Below are positions 51,309 through 64,000 of a stretch of DNA of 64,000 bases, in pieces (the stretch's first letter is position 1; each line of letters opens with the position of its first letter). The position numbers and the translations under genes were made by a program. Below the pieces are notes generated by a model. The model did not search any database. It had not been told where the DNA came from and saw nothing but the letters and a program-made list of their open reading frames with translations. The stretch lies in the NCBI RefSeq assembly GCF_900102425.1, contig NZ_FNBT01000002.1, positions 434,001 to 498,000 on the forward strand. The letters are read 5' to 3'. Source of the stretch: Blastococcus aurantiacus. GTDB taxonomy: Bacteria > Actinomycetota > Actinomycetes > Mycobacteriales > Geodermatophilaceae.

Positions 51309-51767
51309 TCAGGAGGTGAGGGCCCGGGCCACGCGCCCGACCGGCTCCTCGGCGTCGATCGCGGTCAGCGCCTTGCGCAGCAGCGTGCTGGAGGTGTGCA
51401 CCGTGTACGGGAAGTACTTGACCGTGACACCGACGGCGGCGAAGTCCCGCTCGAGCTGCTGGCCCTTCGGGGTGCCGCGCCAGTCGTCACCCTTGAAGAT
51501 CACGTCGAACCCGACCTCGCGCCAGGTGTCGATCTTGTTCGGCACGGTCTCGGCGTGGACGGCGTCGACGAACCGGAGGCTGCGCACGATCTCCATGCGC
51601 TCCGCCAGCGGGACCACCGGCGGGCGCCCCTTGGCCAGTGTCAGCATCTCGTCGGAGACGACACCGGCGATGAGGTGGTCGCAGTGCTCGGCCGCGTGCC
51701 GCAGCACGTTCAGGTGGCCGACGTGGAACAGGTCGTACCCACCGGGGGCGTACCCGATCACCGTCAT
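51309..51767 (-). CDS. Glycerol-3-phosphate cytidylyltransferase-like (TagD family)
   Basis: The 152-residue nucleotidyltransferase has the HxGH motif in GGYDLFHVGHLNVLRHA (H15 and H18) and the second motif TVHTSSTLLRKAL near the end. It would activate a small phosphorylated compound such as glycerol-3-phosphate with CTP, or a related sugar alcohol. RGTPKGQQLE is the substrate-loop region. GGGGGAGG precedes the ATG. Its place beside the exopolysaccharide genes suggests a role in polymer decoration, an inference. Confidence 0.82.
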   Translation of the reverse strand: MTVIGYAPGGYDLFHVGHLNVLRHAAEHCDHLIAGVVSDEMLTLAKGRPPVVPLAERMEIVRSLRFVDAVHAETVPNKIDTWREVGFDVIFKGDDWRGTPKGQQLERDFAAVGVTVKYFPYTVHTSSTLLRKALTAIDAEEPVGRVARALTS

Positions 51768-51889
51768 GCCTCCCCCTCTCCTCGTCGCCGAGCCCGAACG
51801 TAGCCCGGCTCAGGAGCCCTGCACCCGGCTCCGCGGCCACGCTCACCCGAACTGGCGAGCCCGTCGCGCAGGGCCGGAGAACAGCGCCG

Positions 51890-52465
51890 TCAGGGCGTCA
51901 GCGCGGCCGCGACCACGGTCACGGACGCCCGCAGCTCGGCCAGCGCGTGCGCGTAGACGGGGGCCGCCTGCCCGTAGGGGTCGTCGACGTCGTCGTCCGG
52001 ACCGGAGGTGCGCAGCCCCCGGTACCGGGGGGCCAGCCGGACGAGGTCCGTCAACCGCTCGCCCGGTCCGGTGTGCGGCACGGCTCCCGCCTCCTCGGCC
52101 AGCTCCACCAGGGCGGCGAACTCCCGCAGCGTGAACGTGCGCCGCAGCGCCGCCGGGACGGCCGACACGACGGCCGCCCGGTGCGCGCGGGTCATCGTCA
52201 GCACCAGGCCGGCCTCGCGGGCCGCCTCCGCCGCGAACTGCCGGGCGCGCACCGTCTCGGCCGGCACCGACAGCAGGCGGGCCATCTCGGGCGCCATGGG
52301 CTCACCCACGCGCGCGCGCAGACCCGCGCTCCCGACGGCGATCCGGCTCGCCGGCCCGAGCGCCGCCCGCAACAGGACCTCGGCCGCGGGCGACCGGCAG
52401 ACGTTCGCGGTGCAGACGACCAGGATCGAGGGGTCCGGGGCCCGGTCGTCCCGGGGTTCGGTCAC
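51890..52465 (-). CDS. Low-molecular-weight protein-tyrosine phosphatase
   Basis: These enzymes remove phosphate from the BY-kinase that drives polysaccharide export. The 191-residue protein has the P-loop CTANVCR (C18 to R24, CX5R) and the general-acid loop DDVDDPYGQ with the catalytic Asp. It starts 25 bases after the BY-kinase stop on the same strand, a classical kinase-phosphatase pair. GTG start. Confidence 0.92.
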   Translation of the reverse strand: MTEPRDDRAPDPSILVVCTANVCRSPAAEVLLRAALGPASRIAVGSAGLRARVGEPMAPEMARLLSVPAETVRARQFAAEAAREAGLVLTMTRAHRAAVVSAVPAALRRTFTLREFAALVELAEEAGAVPHTGPGERLTDLVRLAPRYRGLRTSGPDDDVDDPYGQAAPVYAHALAELRASVTVVAAALTP

Positions 52466-52490
52466 CTGCGGCTACCGGCGCACCGGGTCG

Positions 52491-53951
52491 TCACCGTCCG
52501 CCACGACCGACGGCCTTGACCGGCTTCAAGCTCCGGACGGCGGGCATGACCGGCAGCGGCACCGCGTCGGGCGCCGGGCCGGACGAGCGCTCCTCGCCGG
52601 TCTGCCGGTAGGCGTACACGTCGTCGGGACGGGACACCTGGTTCAGCACCAGGCCCAGCACCCTGCCCTTGACCTGCTCGAGGGTCTGGAGGCTCTCGGC
52701 CAGCTGCGAGCGGCGCACCCGGGTGACGTTGGCGAGGACCAGCATCCCGTCGACCGCGCGCGAGAGGATCGCGGCGTCGGCCACCGGCAGCAGCGGCGCG
52801 GTGTCGACCACCACGAAGTCGTAGTCGGCGCGGAGTTCCGCCAGCAGGGCCCGCATCGCGGGCGATCCCAGCAGTTCCGCCGGGTTCGGCGGGGTGCGGC
52901 CGGACGCCAGGACCTGCAGGCCCCGGGAGCCCCAGTCCTGGACGACGTCGGCGGCCGACGCCCGGCCGATGAGCACGTCGGTCAGCCCGACAGCGCCCTC
53001 GATGCCCAGCAGGCGCGCCACAGCGGGCCGGCGCAGGTCGGCGTCCACGAGCAGGACGCGGTCACCGGTCTCGGCCAGGCTGGCCGCGAGGTTCGCCGCC
53101 ACGGTGGACTTGCCCTCGCCCTGCAGCGACGAGGTCACCGCGATCACGCGCGCCTCGCGGGAGCCCGCGCCGTCGGAGGGCACGGCGAGGAACTGCAGGT
53201 TCGTGCGCAGCATCCGGAAGCTCTCCGCCTCCGACGCGTGCGGGTCCGCCTCCACGACGATCGGCGGGGCGCCACGCCTGCTGCGGGTCGGGATGGACCC
53301 GACCACCGGCAGCGTGGTCAGCTCCGCGGCGACGCCGGCGTCGCGGACCCGGTTGTCCAGGGCGTCCCGGGCGAGGGCGGCCGCCAGGCCCAGCAGGATC
53401 CCGGCGACCAGGCCGGTCGCGAGATCCAGCGGCAGGTTCGGTCCGACCGGCCCCGAGGGGACCTCGGCTGCCGCCACCGGCAGGGACCGCACCGTCGCCT
53501 GCCCGGTGTCGTCGTCGGGGGCGATGTCCTCGACCACGCGGGACAGGCTCGCGACCACCGCGTCGGCGAGCGCCGCGCTCCGCTCCGGCGACGGGTCCGT
53601 GGCCGACAGCTCGATGATCGCGGTGTCCAGGGGGACCCGGGCATCGAGGCTGCGCGCCAGCTCGGCGGGCGTGGCGGTCAGCTCGAGCTCGTTGATGACG
53701 GGCAGGAGCACCGCCGGGGTGGTCGCCAGCCGGGCGTAGGAGGTCACCTGGTTCTTCGTGTAGGTGGAGCCCTGCACCAGCTCGGAGGCGGAGTCCCCGT
53801 ACTCGGGCGAGAAGAAGACGGTCGCCGTCGACCGGTAGGTCGGGGTCTGCCCGTTCGACCAGACCAGCGCCGCCAGCAGCCCGAGCATGCTCGCGGCCAC
53901 CACCCAGCGCCAGCGACGGCGCACGGCGGTCAGCGGTCCTCGGGCCCCCAT
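52491..53951 (-). CDS. BY-kinase / polysaccharide co-polymerase (Wzc-like)
   Basis: The 486 residues fuse a Wzz-type chain-length domain to a tyrosine autokinase. Membrane helices lie at about 17-32 and 175-195. Kinase motifs are complete: Walker A TSSLQGEGKST (274-283), Walker A' VLLVDADLRRP (299-309) and Walker B FVVVDTAP (379-386). The C-terminal end lacks a Tyr-rich cluster; only Y446 and Y448 are near it, so autophosphorylation may be limited. GGGAG precedes ATG 53951. It is divergent from a related fusion gene. Confidence 0.92.
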   Translation of the reverse strand: MGARGPLTAVRRRWRWVVAASMLGLLAALVWSNGQTPTYRSTATVFFSPEYGDSASELVQGSTYTKNQVTSYARLATTPAVLLPVINELELTATPAELARSLDARVPLDTAIIELSATDPSPERSAALADAVVASLSRVVEDIAPDDDTGQATVRSLPVAAAEVPSGPVGPNLPLDLATGLVAGILLGLAAALARDALDNRVRDAGVAAELTTLPVVGSIPTRSRRGAPPIVVEADPHASEAESFRMLRTNLQFLAVPSDGAGSREARVIAVTSSLQGEGKSTVAANLAASLAETGDRVLLVDADLRRPAVARLLGIEGAVGLTDVLIGRASAADVVQDWGSRGLQVLASGRTPPNPAELLGSPAMRALLAELRADYDFVVVDTAPLLPVADAAILSRAVDGMLVLANVTRVRRSQLAESLQTLEQVKGRVLGLVLNQVSRPDDVYAYRQTGEERSSGPAPDAVPLPVMPAVRSLKPVKAVGRGGR

Positions 53952-54173
53952 CTCAACTCCCCCTCGTCGCCGCGCCGCCGTGGTGCGTGGTCGGCGCGGG
54001 GCGCCGTGTGGCGCAACGGGGCCCAGTCTGCGGGCCGCTCCGGGCCGACCGCCCCGCCCGGAACGTCCGCGCCACCCTTTCGGGTCACGGCCGGCCGCGA
54101 CCTGCGCCGGAGATGGCCTGGTCGGGCAGCGGGTGGGGGACGATGGCCACTCGACCCGGGGGGAGGCACGTCG

Positions 54174-56537
54174 GTGGAGCCGAGACAGTACGCGGCAGCC
54201 GTGTGGCACCGGTCCCTCTGGATCGGGGCCACCGGGTTCACCGTGGCCGCGCTCGCCGTGATCAGCGGCATGGCGGCCTCCCCCAGCTACACCGCCACCA
54301 GCTCCCTGTACGTCGGCGTCAGCGAGGTGGACGCCGGCCAGGGGCTGGCCTGGAGCTCGCTCCTGGACGACGAGCTGCTGCCCTCGATCGTCCGGCTCGG
54401 GACGTCCCCGGCGGTCCTGGGCCCGGTCGCCGAGGAGCTGCCCGTCGACCGGACCCCGGCAGAGCTCGCCGCGGACGTCGACATCGCACCCGTGCCGGAC
54501 ACGTCGGTCCTCGTGGTCACGGCCCGGGCGGCGAGCGCCTCCGGGGCGGCCGACCTGGCCGACGCGGTCGCCGAGAGCCTCTCCACGGTGGCGACGGCGG
54601 CGCACGCCGACGCCGACGGCGGCTCCTACCTGCGGGCCGACGTCGTCGGGCCCGCCCGCGAGCCCCGCTTCCCGTCCGGCACCGCGGCCCGCACCGGCGC
54701 GGTGCGCGGGCTCGCCGTCGGCCTGCTCCTCGGCGTCGTGCTCAGCGGCCTCCTCGAACTGGCGCGGCCGCGGATCCGTGATCTGGCCACGGCGGCCGCA
54801 CTCACCACCTCACCGGTCCTGGCCGGGCTGCCCGCCGCGGGACGGGGAGGTCCGCGCGGCGGTCGCCGGACCGGCCTCGACCGGCTCGCCTGGCTGCTGC
54901 GTTCCTCCCCCGCGGTCCCGGACCTCCGGCGGCTGGTCGTCCTGGGCACGGATGCCCGGGTCGCCCGGCGGTTGGCGGACGACCTCGGACAGGTGCCGGG
55001 CACGGGCCTGGCACCCGTGCCGATGTCCGCGGCCGGGCTGCGGGACGTACGCCCGGCGGAGCACGACGGACTGCTCGTCGTCGCGACCGGGCGCACCACG
55101 CACCGGTCCCTCACCGCCGCCGTGGCAGCCGCGGAGGCCTCTGGCATCCCCGTCCTCGGGGTGGTCCTGGACGGAATCCTCCCCCCTGCGGCACGGTGGC
55201 GTGACCGGCTGCTCGCCGCGGTGCGCGGGAACGCGCCGCTGCCGCGGCGGGTCAGCGCCGCGCCGGGCGCCGTCGACGGTCTCCGCCCGCCGTGGCTCAC
55301 CTCGAGCCGGATCGCGGCCGCCGGTGCCCTGTTCGCCGTCGGCCTGGCCATGCCGACCCCCGGGTCCACGACGACCGCTTTCGTCGCGGGCCTGGTGCTG
55401 CTGCCGTTGTGGATCGCGGCGGTTCCCCGCTTCCGGGGCGCGGGCCTGCTGTGCGGGCTCGCGGTCCTGGCCCTCGTCTCCGGGGCGCTGCTCGCCGGCT
55501 GGTCCGCGGTGGAGCGCGACTTCTCCGTCCGGGCCGCCACGGAGATACCGGTCCTGCTGCTGACCGGCCTGGGCGCGGTCGGGCTGGTCCTGTGGGCACG
55601 CGGCGTCCTGCCGGTCCCGGCGATCGGGGTGGCGTACGGCCTCGGCCTCCTGGTCCACGGCCTGCTCCGGGCCGACCAGTCGATCAACGCCTTCAAGTTC
55701 GAGCTGTCGCTCCCCCTCACCATCGTCGTCCTCTCCCTGGCGGGAATGCGGCAGGGCCGGGCCGCCGCCGTGGTGGCCCTGGCCGGGCTGGGGATCGCCA
55801 ACGTCGCCAACGACGCGCGCAGCGCCTTCGGCTTCTGCGTGATCGCGGCCGGCCTGGTGCTCTGGCAGCTCCGCCCGGTGGCCCGCGCCGGCCGGTCGAA
55901 CGCCTGGGCCGGCATCCTGCTGCTCGGCGCGACCGCCGTCGGCGTCTACCTCGCGGCCACCGAGCTCATGATCGCCGGGGCACTCGGCGAGGAGGTCCAG
56001 ACCCGCACCACGACGCAGATCGAGCAGTCGGGGTCCCTGCTGCTGGGCGGCCGGCCGGAGTGGACGGCCACCTGGGCGCTCATGCAGGACCGGCCCCTGG
56101 GGTACGGGCTGGGCATCGTCCCGGACAGCCACGACCTGGACGTCGCCCGGGCCGGTCTCGCGGTGACCAGGATCCCGACGGTCGAGGGCTACCTCGAGAA
56201 CTTCATGCTCACCGACCGGTTCGAGCTGCACTCGGTGGCGGCGGACCTCTGGTCCGCCCTCGGGCCGGCCGGGCTGGCCTACGGCGTGGCCCTGGCGGCA
56301 CTGCTCGTCGGGTCGCTCTCCCAGCTGCTCGCGCGGCGGCAGGCCTCCGGGCTCGTGTGCTTCCTCGGCCTGACCGCCATCTGGAACGTGGCCTTCGGGA
56401 CGCTGCCCTCGAACGGCGTCGAGGTCTCCTTCGCCGTGGGGCTGATGCTGCTGGCGCGGACGACCGTCCCCTCGCGGGCCGCGGAGCCGGCCGGCACGGC
56501 GCCGGTCCCGGCCGTGCCCGCCGAGGTCCTGCGGTGA
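54174..56537 (+). CDS. Wzz-pseudokinase-Wzy/O-antigen-ligase fusion
   Basis: The 787-residue protein joins three parts. Residues 1-205 are a Wzz-like co-polymerase (helices about 15-35 and 178-196; TPAELAADVDIAPVPDTSVL). Residues 205-370 follow a BY-kinase layout but lack the nucleotide motifs (LRRLVVLGTDARVARRL in place of Walker A; DGLLVVATGRTTH in place of Walker B). Residues 375-760 form about ten membrane helices with an O-antigen-ligase/Wzy end (GGRPEWTATWALMQDRPLGYG, FELHSVAADLWSALGPAGL with H686). Such a fusion would couple chain-length control and polymerisation. GTG start after GGGGAGG. Confidence 0.82.
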   Translation: MEPRQYAAAVWHRSLWIGATGFTVAALAVISGMAASPSYTATSSLYVGVSEVDAGQGLAWSSLLDDELLPSIVRLGTSPAVLGPVAEELPVDRTPAELAADVDIAPVPDTSVLVVTARAASASGAADLADAVAESLSTVATAAHADADGGSYLRADVVGPAREPRFPSGTAARTGAVRGLAVGLLLGVVLSGLLELARPRIRDLATAAALTTSPVLAGLPAAGRGGPRGGRRTGLDRLAWLLRSSPAVPDLRRLVVLGTDARVARRLADDLGQVPGTGLAPVPMSAAGLRDVRPAEHDGLLVVATGRTTHRSLTAAVAAAEASGIPVLGVVLDGILPPAARWRDRLLAAVRGNAPLPRRVSAAPGAVDGLRPPWLTSSRIAAAGALFAVGLAMPTPGSTTTAFVAGLVLLPLWIAAVPRFRGAGLLCGLAVLALVSGALLAGWSAVERDFSVRAATEIPVLLLTGLGAVGLVLWARGVLPVPAIGVAYGLGLLVHGLLRADQSINAFKFELSLPLTIVVLSLAGMRQGRAAAVVALAGLGIANVANDARSAFGFCVIAAGLVLWQLRPVARAGRSNAWAGILLLGATAVGVYLAATELMIAGALGEEVQTRTTTQIEQSGSLLLGGRPEWTATWALMQDRPLGYGLGIVPDSHDLDVARAGLAVTRIPTVEGYLENFMLTDRFELHSVAADLWSALGPAGLAYGVALAALLVGSLSQLLARRQASGLVCFLGLTAIWNVAFGTLPSNGVEVSFAVGLMLLARTTVPSRAAEPAGTAPVPAVPAEVLR

Positions 56538-57562
56538 CGCCCCGAGCCGACGGTGCCCCGGTGGTGCGGGTGCTGCAGTCCTTCCCCGAGCCCCGCCCCA
56601 CCACGAACCCCTACCTGGTCCTGCTCCGCCGCAGCCTGGACGCGCTCCCGTCGGTCGAGCTGCACACCTTCGGCTGGCGCCGCGCCCTGCTGGGCCGGTA
56701 CGACGTCTTCCACGTGCACTGGCCCGAGGTCCTGCTGGACGCGCAGACGCCGGTCCGCGTGCTGCGGCGGCGGGGGCTGGTCGCCCTGCTGCTGATGCGC
56801 TTGCGGCTCACGCGCACCCCGGTGGTCCGCACCCTGCACAACCTCCGTCCGCACGAGGGCGTCGCCCGGGTGGACGCCGCACTGCTCCGCGCGCTGGACC
56901 GGCGGGCACGGGCGTGCATCCGGCTCAACGAGGAGACGCCGGTACCGGCGGGCACCACGGCGGTCACCGTGCCCCACGGCCACTACCGGGACTGGTACGC
57001 CGGCTACGAGGTGCCCGACCGGATCCCGGGCCGGGTCGCCTTCGTCGGCCTCATCCGCCCGTACAAGCACGTCGACGGACTCGTCGCGGCGTTCCGCGCC
57101 ACCGCCGACCGCGCACCGGACGCCGGCCTGCACGTCGCCGGCGGGGTTCCGGCCGACGGCACGGCCGAGCGGCTGCAGGCCGCCGCCGCCGGCGACCCGC
57201 GCATCTCGCTCACCCTCCGGTTCCTCGACGACGCCGAGCTGGTCGACGCCGTCGGCCGGGCCCAGCTGATCGCCCTCTCCTACCGGGAGATGCACAACTC
57301 CGGTGCGGCGCTGCTGGCCCTGTCGCTGGGCAGGCCCGTCCTCGTCCCGCGCAACGCGACCAACGCCCGCCTGGCCGACGAGGTGGGCGCGGAGTGGGTC
57401 CAGATGTACGACGGCGAGCTCGGGCCGGAGCTGATCCTCCGCGCACTCGACCGGACCGCGCTCCTGGGCCCGGGCGAGCACCCCGACCTGGGCGCGCGCG
57501 AGTGGGGGGCCGCCGGCGTCCGGCACCTCGAGGCGTACCGGGCGGCCCTCGCCTCCCGCTGA
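56534..57562 (+). CDS. Glycosyltransferase family 4-like
   Basis: The 342-residue protein has the GT-B fold order: N-terminal RVLQSFPEPRPTTNPYLVLL, VFHVHWPEVLL, RTLHNLRPHE, then the C-terminal donor domain VAFVGLIRPYKHVDGLVAAFR, and the acidic E in YREMHNSGAALLALSLGRPVLVPR. The GTG overlaps the stop of the fusion gene (GTGA), so both act together. It would add a sugar to the lipid-linked repeat unit; donor and acceptor are unknown. Confidence 0.88.
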   Translation: MTPRADGAPVVRVLQSFPEPRPTTNPYLVLLRRSLDALPSVELHTFGWRRALLGRYDVFHVHWPEVLLDAQTPVRVLRRRGLVALLLMRLRLTRTPVVRTLHNLRPHEGVARVDAALLRALDRRARACIRLNEETPVPAGTTAVTVPHGHYRDWYAGYEVPDRIPGRVAFVGLIRPYKHVDGLVAAFRATADRAPDAGLHVAGGVPADGTAERLQAAAAGDPRISLTLRFLDDAELVDAVGRAQLIALSYREMHNSGAALLALSLGRPVLVPRNATNARLADEVGAEWVQMYDGELGPELILRALDRTALLGPGEHPDLGAREWGAAGVRHLEAYRAALASR

Positions 57563-57594
57563 CCTCGCCTCGCGCTGACGCGAGGGCCGGCCGG

Positions 57595-58812
57595 TCAGCT
57601 GCCGGACAGCTCCCGCACCGGCGTCCGCGCCGTGGTGCCCGCCGCTCCGTCGACGTCGCCGTCCGCCGGCCGCAGCGCCCGCGGGTCGCCCACGAGGACG
57701 GCGTAGAGGGCCGACATCGCGAGGAACGACGTGACGATCACTGCCGGGTGGTCCATCGGCGTGCCGAGCTGGCTGACCACGCCCACCAGGAACCAGTGGT
57801 AGGCCAGCAGCACCCAGCCCCAGACCGCCCGGGCGCCGCGCAGCCGCAGGACCAGGACGACGACCGGCAGCAGGAAGACCAGGTCGTGCACCAGGTGCTT
57901 GAAGCACAGCAGCGAGATCACCGAGGCGATGCCGAGGACGAACACCCAGTCGCCGCTGCGGATCTGCCGGCGGGCGAGACCGGCCAGCAGCACCGAGCCG
58001 CCGACGGCGAGGGCCGTGACGAACAGGTCGTTGCCGTCGAGCCACGGGGTCAGGCCCGCGACGGTCATCAGGTCGGCCGCCCCGTCGCCGACGGCCGTCC
58101 GGCTCACCTCGAACGGCGCGAGCAGCGCCTCCAGGAGGTCGGTCGAGGTGACGACGGCGAACACGACGGCCGCGGCGAGCAGCACCACGCCGGCCACCAC
58201 GACGGTGCGCAGCCGCCCCGCGACCAGCAGGACCAGGGCCAGCGGCGCGAAGGAGTACTTCGTCAGGCTCACCGCGAGCGGAGCGCCCGCCCAGGGCCTG
58301 GCGGCAGCCGCGAACGCGATCGTGGCGAAGACCAGCAGGAACACCGCGTGCTGCCCGTAGCCCAGGCCGAGCCTCATCGGCGTCGAGGCCAGCACCATCG
58401 CCACGAGCAGGAGGGTCCCGGTCCGGCCCAGCGATGCGGTGCGCGCGTAGAAGACCGCGAGACCGATCGCGAGGACGACGGTGAGGACCAGCCAGACGAT
58501 GGACGCGGTCCGGAACGGCATCGCACCGAAGGGGACGAGGAGCTCGTAGAGCAGGTGCAGGTAGTTGGGCGACTGCGTCAGGATGATCTCCGGCGAGCCG
58601 TCCAGCCGCGCCTGGTAGGGATCCACCCCCTCGAGGAAGAGCCGCGCCGGGCTCCACTGGAAGTCGCTGCTGCCGAAGCCGCCCTCGGGCGAGAGGGCGC
58701 GCCGGGCACCGATGGCGACCGAGCCCACCGCAGCGAGGACCGCGACCAGGAGGGCCACCGTGCGCAAGACCTGCGGTCGCGTCGCCCGGGCGACGATCGA
58801 CGGCGCGTTCAC
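57595..58812 (-). CDS. GT87-like (DUF2029) polytopic glycosyltransferase
   Basis: The 405-residue membrane protein has about ten helices. The first loop has FGSSDFQWSPARLFLEGVDPY, matching the acidic loop of GT87 mannosyl/arabinosyl transferases that use polyprenyl-phosphate sugars, and a second with LGYGQHAVFLLVF. In the family a catalytic Asp lies in this first loop. GTG 58812 overlaps the stop of the GT2 gene by four bases. Last gene of the minus-strand polymer operon. Confidence 0.82.
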   Translation of the reverse strand: MNAPSIVARATRPQVLRTVALLVAVLAAVGSVAIGARRALSPEGGFGSSDFQWSPARLFLEGVDPYQARLDGSPEIILTQSPNYLHLLYELLVPFGAMPFRTASIVWLVLTVVLAIGLAVFYARTASLGRTGTLLLVAMVLASTPMRLGLGYGQHAVFLLVFATIAFAAAARPWAGAPLAVSLTKYSFAPLALVLLVAGRLRTVVVAGVVLLAAAVVFAVVTSTDLLEALLAPFEVSRTAVGDGAADLMTVAGLTPWLDGNDLFVTALAVGGSVLLAGLARRQIRSGDWVFVLGIASVISLLCFKHLVHDLVFLLPVVVLVLRLRGARAVWGWVLLAYHWFLVGVVSQLGTPMDHPAVIVTSFLAMSALYAVLVGDPRALRPADGDVDGAAGTTARTPVRELSGS

Positions 58813-59756
58813 GCGGCGGCCTTGCGGCGGTACTCGGCGTAGACGACGCCGACGGCGCCGGCCAGCATGCCGGCCCCACGGGCCGCCGTGCGCGCGCCCC
58901 GAGCCTCGTGCGTGGACGACCGCAGGGTCGCACCGAGCAGCCAGCGGCCCAGGCCGACGGCGACCCGCGGCAGCCCCTGCGCAGTGGCCTTCAGCCGGGC
59001 GGCGAGCCGGCCGGGGCCGGTCGGCGCCAGCACGAGCGCGACCCTGGCCGCGGTGTTGCCGTAGCGGAACGACCGCCGGACGACCCAGTCCCGGGACATG
59101 CGCGGAGCCGGCACGCGGTCGGTCACCACCGCCTCGTCGCACCAGACCATCAGGGCGCCGGTGTCCGTCAGCTGCCGGGTGAAGAGCGTGTCGCTGCCGC
59201 CGGTCAGCCCGAACCCGCCGTCGAAGCGGACCCCGGTGGAGCGGACGACCGCGAGGTCGAGCAGCAGGTTGTTCGTGGCCGCCACCGTGATGGGCGTGCC
59301 CGTGGCCAGCCGTCGCCGCTCGAAGAACCCCCCGGCCCCCACCCACGGGTCGAGGTCGCCGTCGAAGTCCGAGACGACCGCGCCCACCACCGCCGCGGCG
59401 GAGGTGCGGGCCTGGGTCTCGAGCAGTCGCGCCAGCCAGCCGGGGTGCGGCCGCTCGTCGTCGTCGATGAAGACGAGGAAGGCGCCGCCGGCCTCCTCCA
59501 GCGCCCGGTTCCGGGCGGCGGAGATGCCCGGCGTCTCCTCGACCACGTAGCGGATGCGCTCGTCGCCGAGGGCCGCCACGACCGGCCGGCCACCGGCCGC
59601 GGCGTCGTTGTCGACCACCAGCACGTCCACCCGCCGTCCGGCGCCCTCGTTCTCGGCCGCCTGCGCCAGGAGCAGCGGGAGCAGCTCGGCGAGGTCGTCC
59701 GGGCGCCGGAAGGTCAGGACGGCGATGGTCACCAGGATCTCGGGACCGGCAGTCAT
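58809..59756 (-). CDS. Glycosyltransferase family 2 (operon gene 3)
   Basis: The 315-residue protein has the GT-A start VTIAVLTFRRPDDLAELLPLL, nucleotide-binding VLVVDNDA, VEETPGISAARNRALEEAG, the DxD motif in FLVFIDDDERPHPGW, and the acceptor region FGLTGGSDTLFTRQL. No membrane helix is clear. ATG 59756 overlaps the previous stop by one base. Sugar specificity cannot be predicted. Confidence 0.9.
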   Translation of the reverse strand: MTAGPEILVTIAVLTFRRPDDLAELLPLLLAQAAENEGAGRRVDVLVVDNDAAAGGRPVVAALGDERIRYVVEETPGISAARNRALEEAGGAFLVFIDDDERPHPGWLARLLETQARTSAAAVVGAVVSDFDGDLDPWVGAGGFFERRRLATGTPITVAATNNLLLDLAVVRSTGVRFDGGFGLTGGSDTLFTRQLTDTGALMVWCDEAVVTDRVPAPRMSRDWVVRRSFRYGNTAARVALVLAPTGPGRLAARLKATAQGLPRVAVGLGRWLLGATLRSSTHEARGARTAARGAGMLAGAVGVVYAEYRRKAAA

Positions 59757-60790
59757 CAGCGGAGTCCTTCTCTCGGGAGGTCGGGGACGAGGGCGCGCGC
59801 GGGCGGGGTGACGGGGCGGGCGTCGTGCCCCGCCGGGGGCCGCAGGAGTGCGGCCGCGGCCGTGCGGAGGCCGGCCGCCGAGCCACGCACCGCCGCCCAG
59901 GCCAACGACGGCCGGTACAGCAGCTGGCGGCGGCCGCCGCGCAGCAGGATCTCCCTGCTCACGGCGGGGGTCGCCCACATCCACCGCACCAGCTGCCGAC
60001 GCGGGAGCAGCAGTGCGGCGAAGAGCAGCCGGTTGCGGCAGTTGAAGTAGTAGTAGAGGGCCGACTTGGCCTCGCCCCGCGTGGGGCCCTGCGTGCCGCC
60101 GGCGTCGTGCACCGCGGTCAGGTCGTCCCGGACGACGAGGGTGCCGCCCGCGGCCACGCAGCGGACGCTCAGGTCGACGTCCTCCCAGTACAGGAAGTAG
60201 CGCTCGTCGAGCGGGCCGATGCGCTGGAGCAGGTCGTCGTGGACCACCACGCAGGCGCCGCTCACCCACTCGTGCGCCGGTCCCGACGCGGCCCGGGCCC
60301 GCCGCCCCGGCGCCACCGGCAGTGCGCCGTCCGAGCGACCCCCGCGGATGCGGCCGCTGTCGAGGAAGACCCGGGCACCGGCGAAGTAGACGTTCCCCGC
60401 CGGGTCCACGACGCGCGGGCTGATCAGCGCCGCGGGCTCGCGCAGGCTGTGCCGGCGCAGCTCCTCGATCACGTCGGCCGCGACGACGGCGTCCGGGTTC
60501 AGCAGCAGGAACGCGACGCACCCGTGCGCCCGCGCGGCCTCGATCCCCGCGTTCACACCGGCGGCGAACCCACCGTTGCTCGGCAGGGCGACGAGCTGCC
60601 AGCCACGAGCCGCCGCGAGACCGGCGATCTCGTCGCGCGCCCGGTCGGTGGAGAAGTTGTCGACCACGACCACCCGGACCGGCAGGCCGGCGAGGTCCAC
60701 GGAGCCCAGGTTGCGCTCGATCAGCGCGGCCGAGCCGTAGTTGACGACGACGATGCCCAGGGCGCCCCCGTGCACCGCGGCGCCGCTCAC
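59756..60790 (-). CDS. Glycosyltransferase family 2 (operon gene 2)
   Basis: The 344-residue protein starts LGIVVVNYGSAALIERNL and has VRVVVVDNFSTDRARDEI, NGGFAAGVNAGIEAARA, LLLNPDAVV and the acceptor motif YFLYWEDVDLSVRC, typical of rhamnosyltransferase-type GT2 enzymes. The C-terminal Arg/Pro-rich part (PPARALVPDLPREG) is not conserved. GTG 60790 overlaps the flippase stop by four bases. Confidence 0.9.
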   Translation of the reverse strand: MSGAAVHGGALGIVVVNYGSAALIERNLGSVDLAGLPVRVVVVDNFSTDRARDEIAGLAAARGWQLVALPSNGGFAAGVNAGIEAARAHGCVAFLLLNPDAVVAADVIEELRRHSLREPAALISPRVVDPAGNVYFAGARVFLDSGRIRGGRSDGALPVAPGRRARAASGPAHEWVSGACVVVHDDLLQRIGPLDERYFLYWEDVDLSVRCVAAGGTLVVRDDLTAVHDAGGTQGPTRGEAKSALYYYFNCRNRLLFAALLLPRRQLVRWMWATPAVSREILLRGGRRQLLYRPSLAWAAVRGSAAGLRTAAAALLRPPAGHDARPVTPPARALVPDLPREGLR

Positions 60791-62166
60791 GCGCCGGCCC
60801 CGGCGGCGGCCAGCCGGCGGCGGACCTGGACCAGGTTGGCCAGCACCTCGAAGACGGCGACGCCGACGACCGAGCCGACGACGGGACCGGCCGCCCCGAG
60901 CGGGCCGGTCAGGTACCAGGACAGCCCCACGTTGACCGGCAACATGATCACGATCATCAGCGCCTGGTAGCGGAGGCCCGGCGCGTCGGTCAGGTACATG
61001 CCCAGCGGGTACTTCACCGCCTGCAGCACCATGAGCACCGCGAAGGCAACCACCACCGGGACGCCCAGGGAGATCTCCCCTCCCGACGCCAACTGCGCGA
61101 GGAGCGGGGAGGCGAGGCCGACGGCCAGGGAGAGCGCGGCCGCGCAGGCGCCGAAGGCCAGGGCCATGGGCACCGGGGAGCCCGGGGTCCCCGCCGCGCG
61201 GGCGCGCGCGAACACCGGCCAGAGGGCGATGCCGCCGGCGCTCACGACCGCCCAGATGGGGATGAACATCTGCGCGGCGAGGCTGTACTCGGCGAGGACG
61301 CCGTCGCCCGCGCGGTGGCTGAGCACGAGCCGGTCGGTCTGCATCGCCAGCGGGACGGCGACCATCTGGACCAGCATCGGCCAGGCCACGTCCATCACCT
61401 GACCACCGCGGTGCGTGCGGAGCCGGAACGCCTGCCACAGCGCCACCCCGACGGCCGGGCGGACCGACCGGGCTGCGACCAGGGTGCAGACGACCGACAG
61501 GAGCAGGGTCGCGGCGTAGGCGAAGCAGGCGACCACCGCGCCGGCGGGCAGGTCCCACCAGAGGCACAGCAGGACGGCGGCCAGCACCAGCGGCGTCTGC
61601 AGGCCCTGGACCGCGATCGACACGTGGTTGCGGCGCAGCCCGACGAGGATGCGCTGGCCGATGCTCAAGGGCACCGAGAGCGCGAACAGCACGACGCAGG
61701 CCGTGGCCACGGCCGGGCCGGTGTCGCCGTCCAGTCCGCCGCCCAGCAGCGCCGGCCACAGGCCCAGGCCCAGCAACGCCACCGCGGCCAGCGCCAGCAG
61801 GGTCGCCGAGACGGCCAGCAGGCGCAGGACGGTGACGAGAACGCGCCGGACCTGCTCGTCCCGCGCCGGGGCGTCGGAACCCGAGACGGCGTTCATGACG
61901 GCAGCCGCGAGGCCCAGGTCGACGAACGGCAGCAGGGCCGCGAGACCGACCAGCAGCGTGTACTGCGCGTAGGCGGGCGTGCCGTAGTTCTCGATGACGA
62001 GACGGGTGACGACGATGCCGAGCACCGCGGAGACCGGGAGCACCAGCATCCGGGCGCCGGCGCTGCGCAGCGGCCCCGTCCACGCGCGCTGCACCGGCGG
62101 GTCGGCGACGGCGCCCACCGCACCGGTGGCCTCCACGGAGGGACGTGCCGGAGCTCCGGTCGTCAT
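60787..62166 (-). CDS. Polysaccharide flippase (Wzx/MVF-like)
   Basis: The 459-residue protein has about 12-14 membrane helices with the MOP-superfamily pattern: RMLVLPVSAVLGIVVTRLVI, YAQYTLLVGLAALLPFVDLGL, then LVGLRRNHVSIAVQGLQTPLV and DVAWPMLVQMVAVPLAMQTD. It would flip lipid-linked repeat units across the membrane to the Wzy-like polymerase. GGGGGAGG precedes ATG 62166 by eight bases. First gene of the minus-strand operon, after a terminator hairpin. Confidence 0.88.
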   Translation of the reverse strand: MTTGAPARPSVEATGAVGAVADPPVQRAWTGPLRSAGARMLVLPVSAVLGIVVTRLVIENYGTPAYAQYTLLVGLAALLPFVDLGLAAAVMNAVSGSDAPARDEQVRRVLVTVLRLLAVSATLLALAAVALLGLGLWPALLGGGLDGDTGPAVATACVVLFALSVPLSIGQRILVGLRRNHVSIAVQGLQTPLVLAAVLLCLWWDLPAGAVVACFAYAATLLLSVVCTLVAARSVRPAVGVALWQAFRLRTHRGGQVMDVAWPMLVQMVAVPLAMQTDRLVLSHRAGDGVLAEYSLAAQMFIPIWAVVSAGGIALWPVFARARAAGTPGSPVPMALAFGACAAALSLAVGLASPLLAQLASGGEISLGVPVVVAFAVLMVLQAVKYPLGMYLTDAPGLRYQALMIVIMLPVNVGLSWYLTGPLGAAGPVVGSVVGVAVFEVLANLVQVRRRLAAAGAGA

Positions 62167-62345: not shown

Positions 62346-64000
62346 TCAGCGCGCGATCGGGGCCGTCCCGGCCGCACCGGCCCACAGGTCGTCGACGTTC
62401 ACCCGGACGGGCGCGGTCGCCGAGCCGGCGACGTACACCGACACCCCGATGCCGCCCGCGCCCTGCAGCGCCGCGTTCGCGCCCGTGTCGGTGGCGCTGA
62501 GCTGCCAGCCGGTGGGCTCGACCGTGCCCGAGGTCCAGGCCTTGGCCTGGAGCGTCGGCGTCTCGGCGCCGGTGACGTCGAAGCGCACCTGGAGGACGGT
62601 GCCGGGCGTGTAGGTGCCCGGCAGGGTGATCGTCTTCAGAGCCGTCTCGGTGCCCGCAGCGGTCCGCAGGAGCGCCATGACCACCTTGCCGTCGGCCTGG
62701 AAGCGCACCGACACCCGGTAGACGTTGTTGCCCGCGGTGCGGCGTGCCATCAGGTAGACGAAGCTGCCGCCCCCGGTCGGCGCCCGGTCGAGGGAGAGCC
62801 CGGCCTGCACCGCCACGTCGCGCGCCTGCACGGAGTTCAGCAGCGCCGCTGCCGACGCCCCTCCCGTGGCCACGTCCAGGTGACCGACGCCGCCGGAGAC
62901 CGACGCGGCGCCACCGGACAGGGTCCACGCGCCGCCGACCTGGGCGACGCCGAACCCGCTGGCGACCTCCCGCTCGAAGGCGTCCATCGCCAGCGGCGGC
63001 GCCCCGACGAGGACCGCACGCTCGACCACGGCGGTGGCGCCGTCGTCGTCGGTCACGGTCAGCCGCACCGTGTACGTGCCACCCGCGGTGTAGGCGTGCG
63101 ACGCCGTGGCACCGGTGGCGGTCGTCCCGTCACCGAAGTCCCACGCGTAGGACGACACCGTTCCGTCGGGGTCGGCCGACGCGGCTCCGTCGACCACCAC
63201 GGACAGGTCCGTCGCGGTGGACGTGAACGCCGCCGTCGGCGCCTGGTTCACCCGCGGGGCGGTCACGGTGACCTCCCGCTCGGCGGTGGCCGTCGCGCCG
63301 TCGTCGTCGGTCACGGTGAGCCGCACGGTGTAGGTGCCCGCGGCGGTGTAGTCGTGCGACGCCGTCGCACCGGTTCCGGTCGACCCGTCGCCGAAGTCCC
63401 AGTCGTGGGAGACGACGGAGCCGTCGGCATCGGCCGAGCCGGCGCCGTCGACGTCGACCCGCAGGTCGGCCACCGACGAGGTGAACGCGGCCGTCGGCGC
63501 CTGGTTCGGCGGTTCGGGGCTCACCTGGACCAGGCGGCTGCTCGTGCTGGTGGCACCCGCGGCGTCGGTGACCGTCAGGCCGACGACGTAGGTGCCGCCG
63601 GCGCCGTAGGTGTGCGACACGGTGCGGCCGGTGGCCGTGGTGCCGTCACCGAGGGTCCAGGCGTAGGAGGCGATCGGACCCTCGGCGTCCACCGAGCGGC
63701 TCGCGTCGAGGTCCGCCGTCAGGTAGGTGGTGGTCGACGAGAACCGGGCGGCCGGGACCTGGTTCACCGGGGCGCCGCTGACGTGCCCCATGACCTGGGC
63801 GGCCGTGAGCGCCTTCGGGTAGTACGCCACCTCGTCGATCCGGCCGCTGAAGGTGTTCGAGCCACCCATCGCGCGGTCGCTGCCCACCCGGAGGTAGCCG
63901 TTGTAGGACTCCCCGGACTTCGTGTCGGTGCGCGAGCCCACCAGCGTCCCGTCGACGTACAGCGCCATGCCGTTCGCACCCATCGAGGCAGCGACGTGGT
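62346..64000 (-). CDS. LamG-PKD repeat surface protein (5' end outside window)
   Basis: The visible 550 residues start inside a LamG domain (HVAASMGANGMALYVDGTLV; RIDEVAYYPKALTAAQV). Three PKD domains follow at about 73-157, 160-243 and 246-328 of the visible part, each with the FGDG core (LGDGTTATG, FGDGSTGTG, FGDGTTATG) and TYTVRLTVTD-type ends. Domains 2 and 3 are nearly identical, suggesting recent duplication. A C-terminal beta-sandwich of 215 residues has FEREVASGFGVAQVGGAWTL and ends in VNVDDLWAG. No sortase motif is present at the end. Probably secreted and carbohydrate-binding; the start lies beyond 64000. Confidence 0.88.
   Translation of the reverse strand, partial: HVAASMGANGMALYVDGTLVGSRTDTKSGESYNGYLRVGSDRAMGGSNTFSGRIDEVAYYPKALTAAQVMGHVSGAPVNQVPAARFSSTTTYLTADLDASRSVDAEGPIASYAWTLGDGTTATGRTVSHTYGAGGTYVVGLTVTDAAGATSTSSRLVQVSPEPPNQAPTAAFTSSVADLRVDVDGAGSADADGSVVSHDWDFGDGSTGTGATASHDYTAAGTYTVRLTVTDDDGATATAEREVTVTAPRVNQAPTAAFTSTATDLSVVVDGAASADPDGTVSSYAWDFGDGTTATGATASHAYTAGGTYTVRLTVTDDDGATAVVERAVLVGAPPLAMDAFEREVASGFGVAQVGGAWTLSGGAASVSGGVGHLDVATGGASAAALLNSVQARDVAVQAGLSLDRAPTGGGSFVYLMARRTAGNNVYRVSVRFQADGKVVMALLRTAAGTETALKTITLPGTYTPGTVLQVRFDVTGAETPTLQAKAWTSGTVEPTGWQLSATDTGANAALQGAGGIGVSVYVAGSATAPVRVNVDDLWAGAAGTAPIAR

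Follow-up and report, generated by a model that had tools for sequence, protein, structure and literature searches.

The fused gene and its distribution

We analysed a 64,000-nucleotide stretch of the genome of the soil actinobacterium Blastococcus aurantiacus (contig NZ_FNBT01000002.1, positions 434,001 to 498,000; hereafter the window). Positions 54174..56537 of its forward strand form a single open frame of 787 amino acids, with a GTG start and a TGA stop, that joins three domains: a Wzz domain of the polysaccharide co-polymerase (PCP) type, a putative remnant of a bacterial tyrosine kinase (BY-kinase), and a Wzy-type polymerase domain. The stretch GGGGGGAGG sits 7 bases upstream of the GTG, and the start is aligned with the starts of relatives. 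A previous reading made from the letters alone (the sequence-only reading) had proposed one unbroken frame linking Wzz, dead kinase and polymerase-type domains, and this was borne out: a search with the full protein revealed the fusion in 13 of 112 Geodermatophilaceae genomes, the window's own included.

At E ≤ 1e-30 the family search matched 14 of the 112 genomes, namely the 13 with a fused protein and one (G062) with the polymerase part only (L151); of the best candidates, up to nine were scored per family genome, two in each of 396 phylum genomes, and up to four in each of 394 class genomes. The 12 other fused members are 40–46% identical to the window's protein. One of them (G085), at first apparently partial, also carries the Wzz part in frame, and another (G095) is truncated at residue 38 by a contig end. 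Because 12 further genomes (one contig-cut) hold the same uninterrupted fused frame, a sequencing or frame artefact or a pseudogene was ruled out; nothing turned up in its support, and its probability is negligible.

No fused match was found with the full protein among the 396 phylum genomes. At E ≤ 1e-15, besides the window's genome, G410 was matched by its polymerase part and G143 by its Wzz part, and plasmid records gave one partial match, in Actinomyces oris (residues 489–742). The architecture for which the sequence-only reading suggested a search in actinobacterial proteomes is present in the family and was not seen outside it in the samples searched, where one locus (L139) could not be judged.

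Trees built from either end of the protein place the fused sequences in one group. All 13 fused rows fall together in the polymerase-domain tree (support 100/99), in which several other rows have long branches, and 12 fused rows lie on one side of one branch in the Wzz tree (100/100). The nearest neighbour of the fused group in the polymerase-domain tree is L142, with weak support (94/74). One fusion event is the simplest reading. Membership of the same genus brings no greater similarity: the fusions of the congeners G002 and G007 are 43 and 42% identical to the window's, against 40–47% for fusions from other genera.

The N-terminal Wzz domain

Residues 1–200 (54174..54773, forward strand) were assigned as the Wzz/PCP domain by Pfam Wzz, hhalign, AlphaFold/Foldseek and hydropathy. 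PF02706 matches the window's protein at residues 7–89 with 26.1 bits against a cut-off of 25.5, and is its only significant Pfam match; it is found at E ≤ 1 in 10 of the 13 fused members, those relatives scored in bits falling below the cut-off. An NCBIfam chain-length model matched residues 9–202 (E 3.5e-7, far under its cut-off), and hhalign aligned the fused Wzz to that of five kinases with E 1.9e-33 over 212 columns. Hydropathy places membrane helices centred at residues 26 and 184, with an extracytoplasmic domain between them. The window's protein therefore has the two marks of a PCP, a Wzz sequence domain and two flanking membrane helices.

A shrunken kinase-like middle domain

Residues 201–345 (54774..55208, forward strand) appear to be a shrunken, cytoplasmic BY-kinase remnant, judging by profile matches to PDB sequences, hhalign, AlphaFold, and motif and tyrosine counts. 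They are followed by a variable linker, residues 346–372 (55209..55289, forward strand), where the mean pairwise identity is 0.28 over residues 345–375 and the predicted local distance difference test score (pLDDT) is mostly below 40. A profile of the 13 fused proteins, compared with all PDB sequences, gave six matches at E ≤ 0.1 (E 0.0048–0.083), all of them to BY-kinases (CapA/CapB constructs, VpsO and Wzc), in two collinear pieces. For chain 3bfv (CapA/CapB), residues 16–109 and 215–259 align to profile positions 198–280 and 296–340; the pieces are separated by 105 residues in 3bfv versus 15 profile positions, so that about 90 residues are missing in the fusion. The domain was judged to be kinase-derived because no other family matched and the order of the pieces fits. 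By hhalign, only the last strand-helix-strand aligned with kinases (41 columns, E 3.3e-7), while a control with the polymerase domain gave 0.3% probability. NCBIfam left a trace of a BY-kinase family at residues 298–334 (E 0.088, far under the cut-off).

An AlphaFold model built from five sequences has a mean pLDDT of 59.6, and the ten-residue blocks of residues 201–340, where strands and helices alternate, score 67–85, with one at 56. All 28 Foldseek matches of this model at E ≤ 0.001 were Wzc or Wza-Wzc entries (best 3.8e-8), followed by KpsE matches from E 0.0013. The 28 Wzc-type matches have TM-scores near 0.2 and root-mean-square deviations of 14–20 Å, with no ranges reported; the low TM-scores probably arise because the domains shift and the query is longer. 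For residues 1–350 the model points to a Wzz and Wzc-like fold, in keeping with the Wzz and kinase folds that had been expected in residues 1–370.

Walker A is missing in all 13 fused proteins (from a scan of 69 loci, with L113 repeated), and the stretch that bears the A' and B motifs in the neighbouring kinase described below has no counterpart in the fusion. Residues 201–372 of the window's protein contain no tyrosine, and the fused set has zero or one there. The middle domain thus lacks the features of a BY-kinase (Walker A, A', B and a Tyr-rich tail), the absence of the Walker residues having been noted from the letters alone, and agrees with a BY pseudokinase, a kinase-derived fold without catalytic residues, its profile and fold matches each being weak alone and the domain shortened. 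It would seem to be less a kinase killed by point changes than one that has shrunk.

The mean pairwise identity by part is 0.40 for Wzz (omitting L046 and L051), 0.38 for the remnant, 0.28 for the linker, and 0.54 for the polymerase domain. For the eight closest pairs, which involve five sequences, the ratio of nonsynonymous to synonymous substitution rates (dN/dS) is 0.48–0.83 for the remnant, 0.32–0.80 for Wzz, and 0.33–0.45 for the polymerase domain.

The polymerase-type C-terminal domain

Residues 373–787 (55290..56534, forward strand) were assigned as a polymerase domain of the Wzy_C/O-antigen-ligase type from Wzy_C matches in relatives, topology and stand-alone homologues. Mean hydropathy over the alignment of the fused proteins gave 12 transmembrane helices, rather than the ten counted in the sequence-only reading. 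Short loops average 1.0–3.2 Arg and Lys on the assumed inside and 0–1.0 on the outside, a topology that places the remnant and the polymerase N-terminus inside and the large loop between helices 9 and 10 (residues 600–698, 99 residues; 55971..56267, forward strand) outside. This loop, supported by topology and alignment, holds GRPEW (56049-56063, forward strand), invariant in the 13 fused proteins. The segment HSVAADLWSALGPAG at residues 686–700 (56229..56273, forward strand) fits H[NSQ]X9GXX[GTY], which we take to be the form of the ligase-type motif. The motif is present in 12 of the 13 fused proteins and in all four stand-alone proteins examined, and arose in 28 of 5000 shuffles of the window's domain. 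The thirteenth fused protein has Ala after the aligned His; the His itself, one of the usual residues named earlier, is invariant (13/13).

Wzy_C was matched at E ≤ 1 in 6 of the 13 fused members, the best at 29.8 bits against a cut-off of 31.7. Among five stand-alone relatives scanned, L144 passes the cut-off with 37.4 bits, L139 reaches 26.7, and three gave no match; the stand-alone proteins of L005 and L006 had no Wzy_C match at E ≤ 0.01. The domain shares with the superfamily 10–14 membrane helices (here 12), a large outside loop, and a His in an HX10G motif, the role of this His being predicted. It is very probably a Wzy_C-type glycosyltransferase; from sequence comparison, both the placement of its reactive loop outside the cell and its predicted function as a polymerase are well supported.

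An HX10G motif in a large outside loop is found in ligases and some polymerases (PMC4815439). As Wzy_C and this type of motif are common to both, the C-terminal domain could be a ligase transferring completed chains onto an acceptor at the cell surface, with another protein polymerising, and a second polymerase on the contig is possible. We consider this improbable: three congeners have a stand-alone polymerase-like gene beside the kinase, no other Wzy_C match lies on the contig, and fusion to a chain-length domain suits a polymerase. In these congeners (G003, G005 and G022), a polymerase-like membrane protein of 411–446 amino acids is encoded divergently beside the kinase, at the place of the fusion. 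The G022 protein matches Wzy_C below the cut-off and those of G003 and G005 do not; the latter are 49–52% identical to the G022 protein, and 53–55% identical to a G026 protein that matches Wzy_C. Three further Wzy_C genes above the cut-off are present in the window's genome, all on other contigs.

Stand-alone relatives of the polymerase domain

Searched alone, the polymerase part matched in 13 of the 394 class genomes, including the window's own. Fifteen loci, comprising the class-search matches together with G043, G052 and G062, hold the domain outside the fusion. In one of these (L139) the contig ends 18 residues ahead of the matched domain, so that the locus cannot be judged as fused or not, and another (L150, in G410) has an in-frame TGA inside the match. 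In four loci (L140, L141, L142 and L143) the polymerase gene immediately follows a same-strand Wzz-kinase gene, while in three the Wzz-kinase gene is further away (on the same strand in L145 and L146, on the opposite strand in L034). No Wzz-kinase gene was found in the stretch covered for the remaining eight, some of which are short contigs. Relatives encoding the two ends as separate genes had been named as grounds for rejecting the fusion. This applies in part: the polymerase part does occur as its own gene, in four loci right after a Wzz-kinase, but in other actinomycete families.

These tandem arrangements (L140 762-3610, L141 3849-6927, L142 488-3452 and L143 8865-11571) could represent the state before fusion. 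The L143 kinase reads NEGKS in place of GEGKT.

The gene order in these four loci, and a same-strand wzy of another subfamily behind the Wzz-pseudokinase in 10 of the family's own 31 split loci (described below), would also fit an accident of operon structure that changed little. A Wzz gene and the polymerase gene downstream of it would have fused once, the kinase domain would have decayed given the presence of another copy, and the polymerase would work just as a stand-alone one does. The poor conservation of the remnant and the linker (0.38 and 0.28 mean identity) points the same way. We think this account rather unlikely, given that the parts have stayed in frame in 13 of 13 members at 40–46% identity, one contig cut aside, and that dN/dS is below 1 for all three parts in the eight closest pairs.

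A divergent kinase and phosphatase accompany the fusion

Divergent from the fused gene lies a gene for a 486-amino-acid protein with Wzz and BY-kinase domains (PCP-2a type; 52491..53951, reverse strand), assigned by Pfam and NCBIfam and forming a clade with other fusion partners. Its Walker A reads GEGKST (residues 278–283; 53103..53120, reverse strand), and a Walker A is likewise present in all 11 other fusion loci that hold the kinase. Motifs that we take to be A' and B, at residues 303 and 380, fall between Walker A at 278 and DGMLVL at 401. A low-molecular-weight tyrosine phosphatase of the Wzb type (51890..52465, reverse strand; PF01451, 8.4e-17) adjoins the kinase, as in the fusion loci generally. 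Alongside 12 of the 13 fused genes lie a divergently encoded BY-kinase, its Walker A intact, and a tyrosine phosphatase; the thirteenth ends at a contig edge.

The kinases beside the fusion form their own clade of 12 rows, with support of 100/98 in a first tree, which omitted L112, L113, L064 and L076 (cut or repeated) and identical rows, and of 99/96 in a second, which additionally omitted L034 of the first set and kept only eight stand-alone Wzz rows. Pairwise distances of fusion and kinase are correlated at 0.92 (11 rows; 0 of 2000 permutations), those of fusion and phosphatase at 0.81, and those of fusion and coaD at 0.53, itself above nearly all permutations. In these comparisons the fusion set lacks L091, whose tblastn piece covers less than 60% of the query, the coaD set lacks L114, and G095 is not included.

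With both parts on one chain, and the fused Wzz set apart in the trees from the Wzz domain of every kinase, the fused proteins might self-assemble into a homomeric enzyme with one polymerase per Wzz subunit, on which the partner kinase acts from outside. In the one measured complex (PMC10030265), a WzzE octamer encloses about one WzyE in its membrane lumen, where eight tethered polymerases would hardly fit; moreover, a second Wzz protein is encoded next door in 12 of 13 fused genes, the thirteenth allowing no judgement. We therefore regard a homomeric enzyme as unlikely. The fixed 1:1 ratio of co-polymerase to polymerase put forward in the sequence-only reading is likewise improbable in view of the one WzyE per octamer in that complex, which argues for a mixed ring. 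A relay of signals from the real kinase through the pseudokinase domain, also put forward in that reading, is hypothetical.

The coaD/mfd site and the pathway genes

The fused gene lies beside genes that we take, from their sequences, to be coaD and mfd. Apart from the window, which is not counted, coaD was matched in 62 genomes, and we surveyed the site in all of these but G033 (58% identical), giving 61 loci; G021 was located by its mfd side. A stand-alone Wzz-pseudokinase and a separate wzy occupy 31 of the 61 loci, a Wzz-kinase and a phosphatase with no fusion occupy 16, and kinase, phosphatase and fusion occupy 10; two contig-cut loci hold a stand-alone Wzz only, and nothing was recognised in the last two. 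In all 10 surveyed fusion loci the fusion and the kinase are divergent, with 240–265 bases between the matched Wzz starts. Counting the window and G090 (L114, with mfd near), 12 of the 13 fused genes lie at the coaD/mfd site. The thirteenth lies at the end of a contig in G095. The coaD site of that genome carries a split system (L105), on a different contig from the fused gene (L112), and a strain mixture is possible.

The site thus looks like an exchangeable polysaccharide cassette. The coaD-mfd region (window 51312-62136; L031-L033, L037-L042, L060-L111) holds alternative polysaccharide cassettes and resembles a capsule-type locus. The stand-alone Wzz proteins with a Walker-less kinase remnant (about 400 amino acids; for example L037-L042) form their own clade, a second and commoner kind of pseudokinase co-polymerase. 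Direct kinship of the fused Wzz with these same-site proteins was considered and is unsupported, the two falling in separate clades in the tree. In 10 of the 31 split loci (L075, L078, L079, L080, L082, L083, L087, L088, L090 and L097), a wzy of another subfamily comes after the Wzz-pseudokinase in the same orientation, its matched domain beginning 33–89 bases past the Wzz frame, a second place where a fusion could arise. A profile of the fusion's polymerase domain had no significant match to the wzy of the split loci (1.1% probability).

Downstream of the fused gene, a glycosyltransferase (Pfam Glyco_trans_1_4) is encoded at 56534..57562 on the forward strand; its possible GTG start overlaps the stop of the fusion (GTGA), so that the two may be translationally coupled. 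The genes beyond it are on the reverse strand and encode a GT87-type glycosyltransferase (57598..58812), two family-2 glycosyltransferases (58812-59732 and 59759-60790, together 58812..60790), and a Wzx-type flippase (Polysacc_synt; 60790..62136). An initiating sugar transferase (Bac_transf, 7e-66) lies on the same contig, 12–13 kb beyond the window's end. The components of a Wzx/Wzy-dependent pathway, namely initiating transferase, glycosyltransferases, flippase, polymerase and PCP, are thus all present in the cluster, with the fusion itself as the predicted polymerase.

Proposed arrangement of the fused protein

On balance, we favour as probable the reading that the fused protein is the repeat-unit polymerase of this Wzx/Wzy-dependent cluster, in one chain with a Wzz subunit that belongs to the ring of the partner kinase, with the kinase remnant as a docking piece. 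The Wzz part of the fusion would join a ring made mostly of the neighbouring Wzz-kinase protein, and each fusion subunit would carry one polymerase into the membrane lumen of the ring. The remnant may take up a single position within the cytoplasmic kinase ring, serving as a docking piece that has no kinase activity, and the partner kinase and phosphatase would drive assembly and disassembly. Since eight tethered polymerases hardly fit one lumen, and 12 of 13 fusions keep a second Wzz-kinase, we infer as the simplest arrangement a mixed ring with mainly kinase subunits and one or few fusion subunits. More tentatively, and with some doubt, the ring could consist of several Wzz-kinase subunits and one fusion subunit, whose dead kinase place would break the circle of phosphorylation and mark the site of the polymerase. 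If so, the number of fusion copies per ring would directly set the number of polymerases.

Several observations weigh against the favoured reading. No fused protein reaches the curated cut-off for Wzy_C, and the window's own protein has no Wzy_C match; a model of the polymerase domain alone has a pLDDT of 64.5, with no PDB fold match at E ≤ 0.001. There is no other Wzy_C gene on the window's contig, but the search (E ≤ 0.1) also missed the fusion's own domain, so a second, divergent polymerase could be present. In the trees the fused Wzz groups with no subset of the kinases; it may descend from kinases encoded ahead of stand-alone polymerases, but in the tree that includes these it is joined at the drawn root by a long branch. 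The two pieces of the CapB match each lack significance by themselves, so that kinship with kinases rests on weak, concordant scores, and hhalign fits the remnant of the stand-alone Wzz proteins about equally well (the same 41 columns, E 7.4e-7). The remnant seems to be constrained, but modestly (dN/dS 0.48–0.83). Finally, linkage of adjacent genes could explain the co-variation of fusion and kinase, which therefore supports a module, not contact.

The control of Wzy by Wzz and the number of polymerases per ring are unsettled questions in surface-polysaccharide biology. A natural covalent link between Wzz and polymerase, kept in 13 of 112 family genomes, suggests that both can act as one unit, and provides a system in which the ratio of polymerase to co-polymerase can be counted and the two can be severed at a defined linker. 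The fusion is, in addition, a PCP with a remnant kinase domain while a full kinase is encoded alongside.

Comparison with known systems

Like Wzc of Escherichia coli, the fused protein has a Wzz domain, two membrane helices and a Rossmann-like, kinase-derived domain, and its kinase and phosphatase neighbours are of the Wzc/Wzb type; unlike Wzc, it carries an additional 12-helix polymerase domain, and its kinase domain has shrunk and lacks the Walker motifs. The BY pseudokinases EcpK and HfsB are proposed as PCP scaffolds in the EcpK/EpsV and HfsB/HfsA pairs (PMC12004946), where a kinase-dead Rossmann-like domain likewise serves a PCP-2 protein. There the components are described as separate proteins without a polymerase, whereas the fusion has all in one chain and a motif-intact kinase is also present. 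The WzyE:WzzE assembly (PMC10030265) is similar in uniting a polymerase and a chain-length regulator in one complex; it differs in being encoded by two genes and in being non-covalent, with about one WzyE per eight WzzE. Wzy-beta and WaaL of Pseudomonas aeruginosa share an HX10G-type motif in a large outside loop (PMC4815439), whereas the fused proteins score below the Pfam cut-off and are joined to Wzz. The stand-alone Wzz-pseudokinases at the same site (31 of 61 loci) have the same order of Wzz and Walker-less kinase remnant; they differ in their separate Wzz clade and in a polymerase that has its own gene and is unmatched by the polymerase-family profile of the fusion.

No Wzz-Wzy fusion was found in the titles and abstract openings of the literature searched, which leaves out most subscription papers; no search of protein databases was made for this pair of domains, and the fusion may be annotated there. 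In the passages seen of a review on Wzy (PMC12004945), the words fused and fusion, which occur once each, refer only to PhoA or LacZ reporters. The accessible part of a paper on actinomycetes (PMC13390465) assigns Wzx, Wzy and Wzz to separate genes, and the corresponding parts of PMC10920833 and PMC4594306 name no Wzz-Wzy fusion.

A large protein beside the cluster

Beside the cluster, window positions 62346-64000 encode part of a protein with PKD and laminin-G-like domains, its frame remaining open past the window's end (L126 3-3134). The window holds only the last part of this protein, and after it comes another large protein whose opening sequence is similar (L126 3396-7895).

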